From NCBI GenBank assembly GCA_029556615.1, contig JAKQDD010000115.1:1-64000 (forward strand): 64,000 bases of DNA, read 5' to 3'. This stretch comes from Verrucomicrobiota bacterium (GTDB lineage: Bacteria > Verrucomicrobiota > Verrucomicrobiia > Limisphaerales > J093). Of the stretch, positions 27,278 to 34,695 are shown in pieces. The notes below the pieces were generated by a model. The model worked only from the letters and a program-made list of their open reading frames with translations. It was not told where the DNA came from and searched no databases. A program made the translations under genes and the position numbers. Position 1 is the first letter of the stretch. Every line of letters begins with the position of its first letter.

Positions 27278-27869
27278 TCAAGGGGTAGCGGTCAGGACGA
27301 CGCGGAATCCGACATGGCTGATTCTGAACTCCGGCCAGTACCCATAGCGGCTTGCGGACCGGAGGTCCCGTCCGGTGTCGCCCCAACTCCCCCCGCGGTA
27401 CACATGCCAGGCGCCCGAACTCGGTCCCTGCGGATCGGTCACGCTCCATCCCGGACCGGGGTCGTGGAGGGCAGGCATGGGCCTGGGGCCCGCTCCATCA
27501 TTCGGAGCGGCATCATCGAAGTCCGACTGCGTTGAACTGAAGCCATCGCCGAAGGACGTTGCCGTCGTCGTGCCCGCCCGAGAGGCGTATTCCCACTGGG
27601 CCTCGGTGGGGAGACGGTATTCGTATCCCGTCGGCAACCGGCCGGCCGTGCGCTCCTGGGCCGTCAGTTGTGCGCAGTCATTGATGGCCTCATCCCAGGT
27701 CACTTGCTCGACCGGCCGATCGTGGTTTCTCGACAGGACGGCGGTCTGGCTCACTGCCCGGGCTGCCCATGAGGGATCTTCCGGACGGCACCCATACCAT
27801 GCCCTCGGGCAGGGGCGGTTTGTGCTCGCCCCGAACCAGGTAGAACATGGGCACGGTCACACGGATCAT
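27278..27869 (-). pseudogene. Broken formylglycine-generating enzyme (FGE/SUMF1) gene
   Basis: Two reading frames are needed. From ATG 27869, which overlaps the TGA of the giant CotH gene (ATGA), the frame gives the usual FGE opening PEGMVWVPSGRSLMGSPGSEPDRRP and then drifts to a stop. A second frame resumes with NHDRPVEQVTWDEAINDC, YEYRLPTEAQWEYASRAGT, and the C-terminal VYRGGSWGDTGRDLRSASRYGYW ... GFRVVL. Segments normally present between the opening and DRPVEQV (the VT-x-x-Y region) and around the NVWEW motif with its active-site Cys are missing. Deletions and a frameshift together mean that no functional enzyme can be made. The ancestor would have converted a sulfatase Cys to formylglycine, or had a related oxygenase-like role. 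Confidence 0.8.
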
Positions 27870-30800
27870 AGCACACGTTCGAGGCGATAGTATTGGCTCG
27901 TCTTCTGCGGGGCCAAGGGCTCCTCGAATCGGATCTCGCCTTCGGTCGTTGCGCGGAGGAGGCGGACCGGTGTCCAGTGGAATAGATCGGTCGAGGTCAT
28001 CAGACGCACCAATTCCCCTGGGATTGCCTGGAATCGTCCCTCGACCCGGTGGCCGGCCACTGCCCGCCACGAGAGCAACGCGAGAGGGACGCGTGCGCCG
28101 TCGGCGGTGACGCGGATGTCATCCAAGCGCAGGGCGGCGCGGGCACCGGAGGCGCCGGTGGTGACGTAGTAGTATTTCCAGCGCAACTGGACGAGCGATT
28201 GATCGCTGGTTTCGGCGGGCAACCGCGTGGGTCCGACGATCAGGGCATCGCCCACGACCGGGCTGCGCGTGTATTCAACAGGTTGATCTTGGGCGTCGGG
28301 CACGTCGCGGAACTCGCCTTTCGGGTCGATGCGGTACTGCAGGCGGAGGGCATAAACGCGGTTGTTGGGCTGGACGGTTCCCGCCGTCCAGGTGACGGTC
28401 ACATTGGACATGCCCCGGGTTTGGAGGGCGAGGACCGCGGCACCGAGGTGTCCGGCGCCCGGTTCGGGTTGGGGATCACCGGTATTGAGAAAGCACATCC
28501 CCCATTCGCCCAGGCCGATGATACGGCTTCGGCTGCCTCGATTGTAGGGGAGGGTCCATTCATTAGTCATCTCGGCGGTCAGGCCGGGGTCCTTGACGCT
28601 CGTTTGGAGAAAGAGCATGTGCGGGGGGAAGGAACCGGCCGGGGAATCGGACGGCCAGGCGCTGAGGGCGAAGTCGCCCCGGGCCAGGTCATGGGGCGTG
28701 GGTCGGAGATGGGACGGGTCGTAGTCCGGGTCGGGCTCGAACCGTGGGGTCAAGCGCGTATCCAGGCTCGGGGTGAGCAGCAGACTGGGCTCGGTTTCCA
28801 GGCGTCCCAACCATCCCTGGAATCGGTAACCGGGGGCCGGGATCGCCTCGACTTGCAGCGGGACAGTCTGGAAGTAGGTGCCCGACCACGGCATTTGCTC
28901 CGTCGAGAACGCCAGGGAATTGAGATGAATCCAGCCGCCGACCGGAGTCTCGCTGTCGAGTTCGATACGGACGGTGCCGCCGAGGGAGAACTGATCGACG
29001 AGATGCCGGCGGACGGCGTCGGGCCGGGCTCGTGCGAAGGCGCGCATGGACTCGACCAGACCCTCCCATTCCTCGAGGCTCTGGATGGGAGTCCAGGCCA
29101 GGTTGGGCACGGCGCGCCAGCGCTGGATTTGTCGGAGCGCCTCGGGCCTCAGGACATCGGCGATGGCATTGATGTGCGCGATGACGGCGTCCGTCGAGAA
29201 CCGGGTGTTGAGGTAATCGGCGAACCGGTTGATGAACTCGTGGCGGAACGCGGTGTTCGTGAGAAGCTGCCGCAGCAGCAAGCAGTCCAGGGCGCCTCCG
29301 ACCGGCGGGCAGCTGACGGCTCGGGCGAGCGTGTTGTTTTCCGGGCCGGGACCGCTCATGTCGAACGTCCAATCGACGTCCTTGAGCAGCCAGCGCCAGA
29401 CCCCACCCTGGTGTTGCGGCCGCCAGTTCATGACGTTGTGGCCGAACCAATCCCGGTTATCGGCAAAGATCTCGATGAGCTGGTAATCGATGAAATTGTC
29501 GATGTCCATCCTCTGGGCTGCGCCGGCGTATCCCTCCGGTGTGGTGAGATTGGCCCGCTGGACGTAGTTGTAGAGCTCCCTGAGGCTGCGCGCGTCCCCG
29601 TTCTTTGGGTCATGCCCGTCCTCGATCAAGTCCGCGGGATTGGCCTCGGAACCGTGATGCCGGGCGAGGTAGGTCGAGTTGATCTTCTCCTGGAGATAGT
29701 ACGAGCCCCAGTACTGTCCGTTGAGGTAGAGGTGAGCCGGACGGCCGGCCAGGACGTCGAGCGCGGTGCCCGTCATCAGGCTGTGAACCAGGGGATCATG
29801 AAACACGATCCCGCGCTGGCCAAGAACCAGGCAGTCGAAGACGTCCGCCTCGAGGTCCGGGAACACGCGGTGACGCATGTTGCTGCTGCCATACTTGCGC
29901 CGGGCCTCGAACTCGACGGATTTCTGGGCGGAAGAACGCGACCAGGCACCGCGGACGAGCAGGCCCACATCCTGACTGAAGCCGCGCTGGCCATCGGGCT
30001 CGAAGAACTCGGCCTGGGCGCGGCGTTCCCACGGAGCCCAGAAGTTCGCGCCGTAGTAAGGAGGATGAGGGTAGGCGTTGGTCCCCATGACGAAGATGCC
30101 GTCGGTCTGGCTCCACAAGCCCTCGGGTGGCGTCGCCACGGCGACCACGGGGATCGTCGAGGGCGGATCGAACCAGTAATGGCGCGTGACGATGGCGCTG
30201 GGCAGGCACTCGGGCCCCGTGGACGTGAATCGGAGAACGACATTCGAGGAAACGGGGAACGGGCCCGTGTAGAGCCGGCTGTCGCCGTCATGGAGTGTCG
30301 AGCGCCCGACGCAATCCCACCAGACACGACCCTCGGACAGGACGACGGAGAAACCGGTGACCGACTGGTCCTCGAGATGGACGGCGGCGGCGGGCACCTC
30401 GAGTCGGATCCATCGGCCCGCTTCGGGCAGGGGACCGATGCGCCGCCGGCCGGCGGTTTCGCTTGCTCCATAAGGGATCAGGTCCTCCCCCCAGAAGGCG
30501 CGATGCTCCCAGTGGCTGGCCTGCCACTGGAACATGATCTCGCGGGGCGGATGCGCCGGATCGAGATAAACGTGGGCGAACAGCCGATCCCCGGTTCGCA
30601 CGGCGAGCGGGTACTGGCTTCCCTGGATGCTATCCGAGTGGACTCCCGGTCCGAGTGGCGAACGGATCGAGTATCCGCCGGAGGCGGGACTGGGCATGGC
30701 CACCCACTCGATCGGGGCAGGCGGTTCTGCGAGATAGGTGGCGCCTTCGGGGAGGCAATCATCCATCCAGACCACATCACGGGGGGACGCGAAGGGCGCG

Positions 30801-32794
30801 CCGGGTTCACTGCCGTCCTTGGTATAGAAGACCGGGCCCGGCCAGTCATGAGGGGCTATCGCGACCTCGATGGGGGTGTCGTAACGGCCGCTCGGGGGTT
30901 CGACGACCGGATCGGGGGCGAGGCGATTCAGGCCGGCGGCGGGATTCGGTCCACCTGGGGAGGGTGCAAGAAATGCGCCCGGCGAGTTCGGGTCTCCGGC
31001 GGGCCGCCCGAAGGCCGTGTCCTGGGGCATGGGCGGAAGGGTCAACGCATCCGCCCGGGTGCCGTCAGGCCATGTCAACAGGAGGGTGGGGGAACCCTCA
31101 TCGAGGGTGAAGCTCGCGTGGAGAAACCGTTGTGGCAGGGCCCACTTTCTCTCGAGATACTCGATCACCGCCGCGATCTCGGTGTCCGTCAGGGTTCGAT
31201 CGTAGAGGAGCACCTCGGCGAAATCGCCATCCCAGACACCGCCTCGCCGCTGGCGGTCGAAGGAGAGCGTGCTGACCTGGGTTGCGGAGCCCAATCGTGT
31301 TGCGAGGGAGACGAGTCGATCGGGGAGGCGAGTGACCAAGGGGTCGACGCGTTGTCCTTCCAGGAAAGTCGCCGAAGGAGCCGATTCTGCAGCGACATTC
31401 TGCAAGTACAACAGCCCGTCGGGTCCGCGCCCGAACCCGTTGGCGGTTGTATCAGCCAGCCAGGGCCGCGCGTTCTGGTCGTCCGCACCCGGCCGTTCGC
31501 GGAGCACGCCGAAGGCGGTGAGGACGCCGCTCATTCGCGGGAAGGCGAGGTAATCATCGACGCCATCGAAGCGGACGAGGGGCAAGAGGGTGAGTGGATC
31601 GGCGATGAGGCGGGGGCGCGACTCGGGGAGGTCTTGGGCAGCCTGCCGGTATCCCTGGCGTGGCGGGCGTGGCGGATTCCATTTCGCGATGAGGTAGGCT
31701 TCGATCGCGCCGTATTCGTCCGGACTGAGGACGCGGTCGAACACGATCACCTCGGCGACATTGCCCTGCCAGAACGTGCCATAGGGCCCCCGGGCGGATC
31801 CGATCGTGTCAACGGCAACGCGGGTCGACGTGACGGTGGTGACGACGACGGTCTGGCGGGGCAGGGGGGTGAGGACGGGGTCGACCATCTCCCCGTTGTA
31901 TCGGACCGCCGAGGTCCACGCAGCGACTCCTCCTCCATCGGTGGGCAGGTAGAGGCAGCCCAATCGGCCGCGATCCCAGCGGATGCCTTTGCTATCGCCC
32001 ACGACGGTGCCGTATCCCAGCGCGGCGGCAGCGTCCTCCGCGCCCACCCAGAGGATCGTCTGTCCCGCCGTGGGAGTGGCCAGCTCGAGTCGATCGTTCG
32101 CACCGTCGAAACGGAGCATCGGCAAGCCGGAGCGGGAATCCTGGACCGTGACAGGTCTTCGGGCGGGGGTGTCCTGTTGGGCGTGAGCACCGGAGGCGGA
32201 GCGATCGTTCCATTGTTGCACAGCGCCTTGGTTTAGAAGGACATCATCAGCGATCGACGCATCGAGCCATAGAACGAGGTCTGGGAACTGAGATGGGGAA
32301 GTGGATGGGGGGTCTGTGAAATCGAAGCGTTGCCCGCTTCGATCCCGCCATTCCGCGACCCACGTTCCATCCAGGACGAAAGTGTTCTGCTGAGCGGCGT
32401 CGAGCCAGAGGCCGAGCCCCTCAGTCACGCTCAGCGCGGGCGGATCCTGATCCGGCCGGAGCTGGGGCAGTCCTGCGGGGTCACTCCGGTTCTTACCCGA
32501 GGCGAACACGACCAGCCGGCCCCCCGGAGGCAGAGTCAGGTCCGGGAACGTCCACCGGAAGGGTTGCCCCGGATCGTTGCTGAGACCGACGCGGTTCAAG
32601 CCGACGGCTTCGGAGCCGGTGTTCTCGATCTCGATCCAGCCCGTGTACTCGGCGTCTTCGTCCGGCAGCAGACCGGTGTCGACAGGCATCACCTCGCTGA
32701 GGCGAAGTCCGGCCGCTCGCAGGGGGATGGCCAGAACCACCGCCGCGGCGAAACCGATTAGTGGGAGGAAACGGCGGCGCCCAAGGCTCACCAA
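27866..32794 (-). CDS. Giant exported LTD/LamG/CotH protein
   Basis: This 1642-residue protein has a signal peptide at about 7-27. Domain order: LTD (about 30-120, LRLSEVMPVDTG); two LamG/concanavalin-like modules (about 165-370 and 395-550, both containing VLWLDAS/RFDGVDDYL and ending AEV(I/L)(V/L)(F/Y)DR-L); a chitobiase-C-like strand (about 630-670, YTKDGSEPG); a jelly-roll module; a CotH kinase-like domain (about 900-1290, VWRWLLKDVDWTFDMSG); an InlB-B-like beta module (GGTVRIELDS...GYRFQGWLG, about 1310-1370); and C-terminal beta modules ending SQYYRLERVL. It shares LTD and CotH parts, but not their order, with the plus-strand protein at 10948-18585. Its stop overlaps the start of the broken FGE gene. 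It is probably a cell-surface or secreted protein; substrate and partners are unknown. Confidence 0.85.
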   Translation of the reverse strand: MVSLGRRRFLPLIGFAAAVVLAIPLRAAGLRLSEVMPVDTGLLPDEDAEYTGWIEIENTGSEAVGLNRVGLSNDPGQPFRWTFPDLTLPPGGRLVVFASGKNRSDPAGLPQLRPDQDPPALSVTEGLGLWLDAAQQNTFVLDGTWVAEWRDRSGQRFDFTDPPSTSPSQFPDLVLWLDASIADDVLLNQGAVQQWNDRSASGAHAQQDTPARRPVTVQDSRSGLPMLRFDGANDRLELATPTAGQTILWVGAEDAAAALGYGTVVGDSKGIRWDRGRLGCLYLPTDGGGVAAWTSAVRYNGEMVDPVLTPLPRQTVVVTTVTSTRVAVDTIGSARGPYGTFWQGNVAEVIVFDRVLSPDEYGAIEAYLIAKWNPPRPPRQGYRQAAQDLPESRPRLIADPLTLLPLVRFDGVDDYLAFPRMSGVLTAFGVLRERPGADDQNARPWLADTTANGFGRGPDGLLYLQNVAAESAPSATFLEGQRVDPLVTRLPDRLVSLATRLGSATQVSTLSFDRQRRGGVWDGDFAEVLLYDRTLTDTEIAAVIEYLERKWALPQRFLHASFTLDEGSPTLLLTWPDGTRADALTLPPMPQDTAFGRPAGDPNSPGAFLAPSPGGPNPAAGLNRLAPDPVVEPPSGRYDTPIEVAIAPHDWPGPVFYTKDGSEPGAPFASPRDVVWMDDCLPEGATYLAEPPAPIEWVAMPSPASGGYSIRSPLGPGVHSDSIQGSQYPLAVRTGDRLFAHVYLDPAHPPREIMFQWQASHWEHRAFWGEDLIPYGASETAGRRRIGPLPEAGRWIRLEVPAAAVHLEDQSVTGFSVVLSEGRVWWDCVGRSTLHDGDSRLYTGPFPVSSNVVLRFTSTGPECLPSAIVTRHYWFDPPSTIPVVAVATPPEGLWSQTDGIFVMGTNAYPHPPYYGANFWAPWERRAQAEFFEPDGQRGFSQDVGLLVRGAWSRSSAQKSVEFEARRKYGSSNMRHRVFPDLEADVFDCLVLGQRGIVFHDPLVHSLMTGTALDVLAGRPAHLYLNGQYWGSYYLQEKINSTYLARHHGSEANPADLIEDGHDPKNGDARSLRELYNYVQRANLTTPEGYAGAAQRMDIDNFIDYQLIEIFADNRDWFGHNVMNWRPQHQGGVWRWLLKDVDWTFDMSGPGPENNTLARAVSCPPVGGALDCLLLRQLLTNTAFRHEFINRFADYLNTRFSTDAVIAHINAIADVLRPEALRQIQRWRAVPNLAWTPIQSLEEWEGLVESMRAFARARPDAVRRHLVDQFSLGGTVRIELDSETPVGGWIHLNSLAFSTEQMPWSGTYFQTVPLQVEAIPAPGYRFQGWLGRLETEPSLLLTPSLDTRLTPRFEPDPDYDPSHLRPTPHDLARGDFALSAWPSDSPAGSFPPHMLFLQTSVKDPGLTAEMTNEWTLPYNRGSRSRIIGLGEWGMCFLNTGDPQPEPGAGHLGAAVLALQTRGMSNVTVTWTAGTVQPNNRVYALRLQYRIDPKGEFRDVPDAQDQPVEYTRSPVVGDALIVGPTRLPAETSDQSLVQLRWKYYYVTTGASGARAALRLDDIRVTADGARVPLALLSWRAVAGHRVEGRFQAIPGELVRLMTSTDLFHWTPVRLLRATTEGEIRFEEPLAPQKTSQYYRLERVL

Positions 32795-33135: not shown

Positions 33136-34695
33136 TTACTCGATGGTGACATCGAGGGTCCCGACGAGGGCTCCGGCGAGCGGGCCGGTCTCCTGGGTCA
33201 TGGTGACGTGGTAACGGCCGGGTTTTAAGGATGGGTCTCCCCATGAGACCCCGCAGGTGCCGCCTCAGCCATACTCCATCGACTGGGCGAGGAGTTCCTT
33301 GCCCTCGGCGTTCGTGATCCGGATCCTGGGTGGAGTGTCCACGGTCCTGCCGTGTTCGCCCTCAAGCCGGCCGAACCGGGAGAGGATCTCCTTCTGGGCG
33401 CAAGCGATCTTTGGTTCGAGGTAGATTCGTGTTCCCTTGGAAAATGCGGTCGCGGTCTTGGCGTCGGAGTTGTAGCGATCCTGCTCGCGCACGGCGCGGA
33501 CTTCGAGTTTGGGCTGGTTAAGAACAACCTCGACGGTTTGGTTTTCGAGGAGCGTTGTCACGGGGCCTTGGGAGAACGAGACAGTCCAGTTGGTTTCGTC
33601 TTCCTTTCCGTAAGTAAGGTAGCCGCGGCTGAGGTTGTACCGGGCGACGGGCAACTTGCCGATGGGATCATTGACGGAAAAGAAAACGGTCTTGTTGTCC
33701 GCGCCCTGGAGGGAGAGGTTCCGAACGCGGGTCGGCACGGGCTGGGCACACGCGAGTTTCACGGCCAATGTGCCGACCGGAGACGTGTCGGGGATCAGGA
33801 CGGCGCGGGCGGGATGACCGGTGGCGCGGCGGCCGTCGAGCTTGACCTGATAGAATCGGCCGTTGTAGGGCATCAGGCTGCTCAAGATCTCGCGCGGGAT
33901 GTACACGGATGGAGGAGGCGTTCCCGGCTGTGGGTCCTTGGGCAGGAGAGCGCATTGCGAGCTGCCGAAACGGTCAAACTGGCCGCCGAAGCCGTCGGCG
34001 AAGAGGATGATGCGGACCGGCTTGCCTTCAACGGCCGCGGTGCCCTCGAGCATGGCGGCCGGGCTCCACATGAAGTTGGGTTCATCGCCGTTTCCGTAGA
34101 AAGCCACGCGGAGCAACACGCGGAACGTGACCCGTTCGGCGGTCGCGTTGTCAACGGAGACGTTCCCCCGGGTGTACGAATGCTGGAAGTCCGGAGTGAT
34201 GAACTCGACAGAGCGGTCATCGGCCTTTCGCGTGGGCGGGATGCGCTCGTTGTCCTCGAGTTGGCCGTTGGCATTGAGATCGAAGTAAAGCGCATCGACG
34301 TGTCGGCGGTGATGCGCGAGCGCCGACCATTGGCGTCCCTCGAGCATGGCGTGGTGAACGGGAGTTACGAGGGCAGCCTTTTTGCGAACGCTCTGGAGGA
34401 AGGAGTTGTCCGCTTCGTTGTTTCGCCCGAAGCCCCAGTAGGAGTGGTATTGGAGGTCGTCCGACTGGCCTGTTTGGGGGCGGTACTTGAGGTCAAAGGC
34501 GATGGCGCCGGGGGGGAGCTCGGTGAGCCCTGTCGGAGGCGCGTTGTCCTCGACGGCGGGGGGCGCGGGCACACACGCGGCCATCTCGATCGGCGGTCCC
34601 ATGGAGACGTCGTGTCCGGGTCGGCGAAGGAGATAGAAGGCCGCAATCAACAGCGCGAGGGAGACCGCCAGAACCAGTCCGGTTTTTCGTTTCAT
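33136..34695 (-). CDS. Membrane-anchored protein with in-frame TGA; candidate selenoprotein
   Basis: Starting at ATG 34695 (MKRKTGLVLAVSLALLIAAF, one membrane or signal segment), the frame runs 476 codons to a TGA at 33267-33265, then continues open in the same frame for 42 codons to TAA at 33138-33136. The junction reads EYG-[TGA]-GGTCGVSWGDPS, followed by KPGRYHVTMTQETGPL and a terminal LVGTLDVTIE strand: protein-like sequence that completes a beta-domain. A Cys lies four residues after the TGA. Thirteen bases after the TGA begins a perfect 7-bp hairpin (33233-33251). Either TGA is read as selenocysteine or the gene has a recent nonsense change. The rest of the protein has an EF-hand-like FDLNANGQLEDNE near residue 140 and periplasmic beta-rich character; no named family was recognised. 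Confidence 0.6.
33233..33251 (-). promoter_or_regulatory. SECIS-like hairpin downstream of the in-frame TGA
   Basis: On the minus strand GGGTCTC (33251-33245) pairs perfectly with GAGACCC (33239-33233) around the loop ATGGG. The apical loop begins 20 bases after the TGA, within the distance expected for bacterial selenocysteine-insertion elements. The loop has G at its third position but not in its first two, so it does not fully meet the published consensus. The pairing could also be chance within coding DNA. Confidence 0.45.

Follow-up and report, generated by a model that had tools for sequence, protein, structure and literature searches.

A probable selenocysteine-encoding UGA in an apparently undescribed, widespread family of putative envelope proteins

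The 64,000-nucleotide stretch of DNA analysed here (the window) carries on its minus strand, at 33136–34695, a gene whose in-frame TGA at 33265–33267 is very probably read as selenocysteine (Sec). Read in this way, the gene would encode a selenoprotein of 519 residues with Sec at position 477. It would belong to an apparently undescribed, widespread family that spans Planctomycetes, Verrucomicrobia and their relatives and whose proteins would lie at the envelope; comparison across genomes suggests that the family keeps Sec nearly always at this site and almost never replaces it by an ordinary Cys. An earlier note, made from the letters of the window alone, had proposed that the TGA encodes Sec; a TGA present in nearly all homologs, a covarying hairpin behind it, and tRNA-Sec together with selA, selB and selD in the genome all favor that proposal.

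The frame starts with an ATG at 34695, runs for 476 codons to the TGA and continues for 42 codons to a TAA at 33138–33136, and the coordinates came out as claimed when they were re-derived. An alternative start lies upstream (ATG 34734), the one at 34695 being favored by the homolog L018. The junction does read EYG-TGA-GGTCGVSW, with the codon for Cys481 at 33253–33255 (minus strand); a Cys four residues past Sec holds for the window gene and is usual in the family, but is not universal. As the genome has a G+C content of 66%, 42 open codons alone are weak evidence. The extension (33136–33264, minus strand, including the TAA) had also been described as protein-quality sequence, and the comparison with L018, the closest homolog, bears this out: 33 of the 42 residues past the TGA are identical (25 of 42 in the case of L019), compared to 25 of the 50 residues before it. 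Correspondingly, dN/dS is about 0.19 after the TGA (dN 0.129, dS 0.693) and about 0.72 over the 50 codons before it (dN 0.428, dS 0.593). Judging from these substitution patterns, the extension is protein under purifying selection, better conserved than the codons upstream of the TGA, and in the predicted structure it completes the C-terminal β-sandwich. An extension of 40–43 residues is found in 49 of 126 members, while others have longer tails past Sec, of about 270–350 residues in many and 512–572 in a few.

Could the TGA simply be a stop after all, either an ordinary one or one made by a recent nonsense mutation, with the extension decaying behind it? A similarity search of 146 relatives from the window's own order returned ten homologs, with 25–55% identity or shorter C-terminal matches. 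Nine of these have a TGA at the same place, one per frame. The tenth, L020, lacks both motif and TGA; its genome keeps SelB and a TGA-bearing paralog (with the same contig coordinates in G047 and G146), which points to a loss in one paralog. We then consider a motif scan of GTDB genome DNA that accepted any TGN at the Sec position, so that Cys and Trp were allowed. It yielded at least 117 family members, all with TGA among the matches listed and none with Cys at the Sec position; since the motif itself was the query, the conservation of its other residues in this set is not independent evidence. Ten further TGY or TGG matches of the scan were dismissed as chance, being unrelated, mostly short frames with far lower family-profile scores.

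A profile search, which is blind to the codon at the Sec position, gave TGA in 15 of 15 cases in the window's own phylum (388 genomes; two of the 15 are the window genome's own genes). In the phylum of the Sedimentisphaerales (Planctomycetota) genome G164, which holds locus L068, it gave TGA in 56 of 60 (392 genomes), where weak matches near E 0.001 were in part read by eye. Of the four exceptions, one is an alpha-2-macroglobulin-like domain from outside the family, two have lost the motif and one has Cys. In total, more than 80 genomes from several phyla share the TGA. The members come mostly from metagenome-assembled genomes, and the contamination estimate for the window genome is 7.45%. A scan of genome contigs with back-translated peptides for a single protein gave no match, the sequence being too divergent outside the motif. 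The one homolog with Cys, L260 (G949 contig 53), is lone and distant; it shows Cys-Cys at the Sec position without the presumed partner Cys, and no SelB above cut-off was found in the available contigs of its genome. The homologs thus neither end at the TGA nor carry unrelated residues there, and the recent nonsense mutation that the earlier note had kept as its alternative is refuted by the same TGA in so many genomes. Reading the codon as a stop of either kind is exceedingly improbable, also because the extension is better conserved than the region preceding it. What might still speak for a stop lies in the hairpin: its unremarkable single-sequence energy and a loop that violates a published rule.

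This hairpin (33233–33251, minus strand) was present exactly as described before, starting 13 bases past the TGA with a perfect 7-bp stem and a 5-nt loop (GGGUCUC-AUGGG-GAGACCC); the loop begins 20 nt past the UGA. No RNA family in Rfam matched in the window. Taken by itself, the window hairpin has a folding z of −1.09, which is within chance, and its energy (−15.9 kcal/mol for the 39 nt following the UGA) was set aside as evidence because it is not significant and comparative tests decide. These tests oppose a stop. The six central pairs form in 97–99% of the 126 genes when G-U is counted. Among 32 diverse sequences, 92.7% of cells are paired, 34 cells are changed on both sides and five of the six pairs show such double changes. 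Their covariation score was reached by none of 500 shuffles, and slid controls all scored far lower, although the tested structure was read from the same 32 sequences, which favors it somewhat. When synonymous codons were permuted among the 126 genes, pairing dropped (z 4.8). The choice of codons and residues follows the helix as well: Ser is always TCG or TCA and its partner column mostly holds CGA-type codons; Thr, as ACG or ACA, goes with CGT or AGT, Leu with Glu (CTC/GAG), and Tyr or His with Val. By this comparative measure the hairpin is a real SECIS, with covariation at six base pairs over 126 genes, in part through synonymous changes. This agrees with the earlier suggestion that it is the stem-loop which bacterial Sec insertion uses just downstream of UGA.

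The machinery for Sec is also in place. The earlier note had proposed looking for selA, selB, selC and selD in the same genome; tRNA-Sec was found there, selA and selB adjoin on contig 148, and selD (L148, G000 contig 117) has an in-frame TGA of its own, in the context SCAG-U-ASKLG. In the family at large, SelB scores above curated cut-offs in 32 of 35 family-bearing genomes and SelD in 34 of 35, and in G080 a family gene directly adjoins selB. The UGA could alternatively be read by means other than Sec, such as a suppressor tRNA, a reassigned code or a programmed bypass. We regard this as very unlikely given the presence of tRNA-Sec, SelA, SelB and SelD, the hairpin at the spacing expected for a SECIS, and the finding that the sole plain-codon homolog aligning at the site carries Cys, its genome showing no SelB above cut-off. 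Under the preferred reading, for which sequences alone could hardly give better support, SelB would bring Sec-tRNA to the UGA by recognizing the downstream hairpin with its loop RUGG(C/G/A).

The apical loop deserves a closer look. According to PMC13188914, the published bSECIS model (bSECISearch) requires that one of the first two positions of the apical loop be G and allows a loop of 3–9 nt, a stem of 4–16 bp, 16–37 nt from UGA to loop and at most −7.5 kcal/mol. With its 5-nt loop, 7 bp, 20 nt and −15.9 kcal/mol, the window hairpin lies within these ranges, but its loop AUGGG (33240–33244, minus strand) fails the rule on G. That neither of the first two positions is G had been noticed before and is true of the window hairpin; an A-first loop also occurs in 46 other genes. 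The family consensus is RUGG(C/G/A), and the 126 genes divide into 79 with G first and 47, including the window gene, with A first (GUGGC 75, AUGGC 40, AUGGG 5, GUGGA 3, AUGGA 2, GUGGG 1). The family therefore resembles the model in its short stem, small apical loop and 20-nt UGA-to-loop distance, with GUGG-loop members fitting the G rule, whereas AUGG-loop members have no G at the first two positions.

Which base comes first appears to be a property of the genome: of the 29 genomes that contain at least two members, 28 use a single first base throughout. A SelB tree shows two groups of A-first genomes, of 10 and 4 rows, and one group of 15 rows with G-first genomes, two further G-first rows lying outside it; the sole mixed-loop genome branches off basally in one of the A groups. 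The loop follows SelB better than taxonomy, since G017, from the window's own order but with G loops, has its SelB inside the G group, and the Planctomycetota genomes G149, G153 and G158, with A loops, have A-group SelBs. Sequence comparison suggests a correlation of the first loop base with genome and SelB lineage, albeit one with few independent switches, a claim that concerns the new family only. A genome-wide SelB dialect was considered and rejected, as the selD loops in three A-type genomes read AAGA, AGAA and CGAC. WH4 residues that separate the A and G lineages of SelB were listed and left uninterpreted because Moorella SelB (PDB 1wsu) also has the RD pair seen in the A group. The window genome also encodes a second, very divergent SelB-like protein above the cut-off (L011, G000 contig 202, 43685–47845), which is unplaced in the SelB tree and could be a paralog or, with contamination at the level given above, a contaminant.

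The predicted structure of the window protein starts with a helix (residues 4–23, encoded at 34627–34686 on the minus strand) that is hydrophobic and fits the membrane anchor claimed earlier. It is followed by several β domains, the C-terminal one being modelled with high confidence. The N-terminus would anchor the protein in the membrane, and the model thereby suggests that the remainder faces the outside of the cytoplasm, that is, the periplasm or cell surface. In the C-terminal β-sandwich, a tight β-hairpin is predicted to expose Sec at its tip. This domain may be weakly likened to the alpha-2-macroglobulin domain MG2 (PF01835), a macroglobulin-type likeness and not a membership: 10 of 56 members match MG2 weakly in their C-terminal domain (best E 0.001), and the window sequence alone has no Pfam match, MG2 included. 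Searches of PDB folds returned weak multi-domain β matches only, complement and A2M domains among them. MG2 differs in having no Sec, while the loop of the new family carries U-G-G-x-C; the one unrelated profile match, an A2M-like protein (identity judged by eye), has YGADSTVSGMWRVP at the Sec loop. Equally, the family differs from thioredoxin-fold selenoproteins with UxxC: its model is all-β and its motif is U-x3-C.

The family signature reads [FLM]-x-[FY]-G-U-G-G-x-C-x-x-[ST]-W-x-x-P. Three members, L216, L217 and L218, keep the TGA without the downstream Cys (UGGYSFSG, UGGSLSYSG and UGSGAGYSW), which makes Sec the better conserved residue of the presumed pair. The forms of the family include short anchored proteins of about 214 residues, proteins of 430–560 residues such as the window's, proteins with membrane segments after Sec, and very long ones.

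What might such a site do? The answer is much less certain than the Sec decoding. In an extracytoplasmic site for redox chemistry or for a metal or metalloid, the working group would be the selenol at the exposed tip of the MG2-like β-sandwich, usually with Cys four residues on and in many cases acting as a Sec-Cys pair; Cys could seldom take over this chemistry, and of the two roles redox is slightly ahead. An extracytoplasmic selenol redox enzyme with a Sec-Cys selenylsulfide cycle, for example a peroxidase or disulfide reductase, is a possibility to which we give a little less than even weight. It agrees with the Sec-x3-Cys of most members, the exposed position of Sec in the model and the fact that known selenoproteins are mostly redox proteins (PMC13188914), but it sits uneasily with the TGA members without Cys, the absence of a thioredoxin fold and redox partner genes that are not consistently nearby.

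Binding of a soft metal or metalloid, or of a small substrate, by the selenol at the envelope is conceivable but more doubtful. The near-absence of Cys replacements would suit this function, as would gene neighborhoods of the short form. In L093 these include an outer-membrane-barrel-like protein, an NMT1-like binding protein, an ABC permease with ATPase and an HGD-D protein; a SAM methyltransferase adjoins in L064 and L079, and HGD-D proteins in L030, which possibly amounts to an uptake and conversion pathway. Such a neighborhood is restricted, however, to the short-form subfamily, and there is no conserved second ligand besides the optional Cys. A CarboxypepD_reg repeat protein follows in 19 of 60 downstream neighbors scanned, and no operon conserved across the whole family was seen. 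The surroundings of the window gene include an MliC protein and a CotH/LTD protein, neither with an evident link to its function; downstream, at 27866–32794 (minus strand), lies a protein of 1642 residues that has a CotH kinase domain as well as lamin-tail and laminin-G-like ones. As a third function, a selenium-dependent switch would use termination at the UGA under scarce selenium to yield a truncated protein. The UGA is near the C-terminus in many members, where truncation spares most of the protein, but 270–570 residues, membrane segments included, follow it in others, so it is not placed for mild truncation and we consider a switch improbable.

That the family is unnamed, as the earlier note had it, still holds: seven members have no match above cut-off in NCBIfam 20.0 or Pfam-A. 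A 2026 table of 119 prokaryotic selenoprotein families (PMC13188914), compared by eye and with the NCBIfam scan, contains no match in motif or domain; the families of Haft and Tolstoy 2025 are included in it. No description of the family was found in the literature searched. Two known cases come to mind for comparison. GrdA, according to PMC12013277 the only selenoprotein family previously without Cys homologs, is a possible parallel in being essentially free of them, but it is a CxxU protein that serves in amino-acid reduction, whereas the new family is a sequence-unrelated, predicted envelope β-sandwich and has one distant Cys homolog. Hypothetical selenoprotein DG (NF049953, GUxG; PMC12013277) is also of unknown function and has a G-U-x-G motif; in contrast it has Cys homologs, was described from Desulfosediminicola and did not emerge as a match of the new family in the NCBIfam scan.

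Selenoprotein finders based on homology need Cys homologs and a loop that obeys the G rule, and the method of PMC12013277 (deep-Sep) may miss families without Cys homologs. Near-absence of Cys homologs, together with a break of the G rule in about a third of members, would explain why the family was missed, its genes presumably being annotated as truncated proteins. It would add an envelope β-sandwich to a field in which redox proteins of the thioredoxin fold predominate, and a second near-obligate Sec case beside GrdA, and the natural pairs of SelB and SECIS loop offer material for testing how SelB reads RNA. We tentatively propose, as a view nearly as likely to be right as wrong, a non-thioredoxin, MG2-like Sec superfamily for a chemistry that Cys almost never performs, with GUGG and AUGG SECIS elements that have co-evolved with distinct SelB lineages and a specificity naturally switched more than once.

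Several observations concern genomes with more than one copy. The window genome holds a second member, L142 (G000 contig 31, 58357–58389, minus strand), with an AUGGC loop and about 284 residues including membrane segments after Sec. A second Sec further upstream in short members was considered and rejected, as their frames open after ordinary stops with a start and a hydrophobic anchor. Tandem pairs of TGA-bearing members occur at L021, L023, L061, L066, L094, L097, L117, L126 and L134, usually with a membrane form beside a secreted form.
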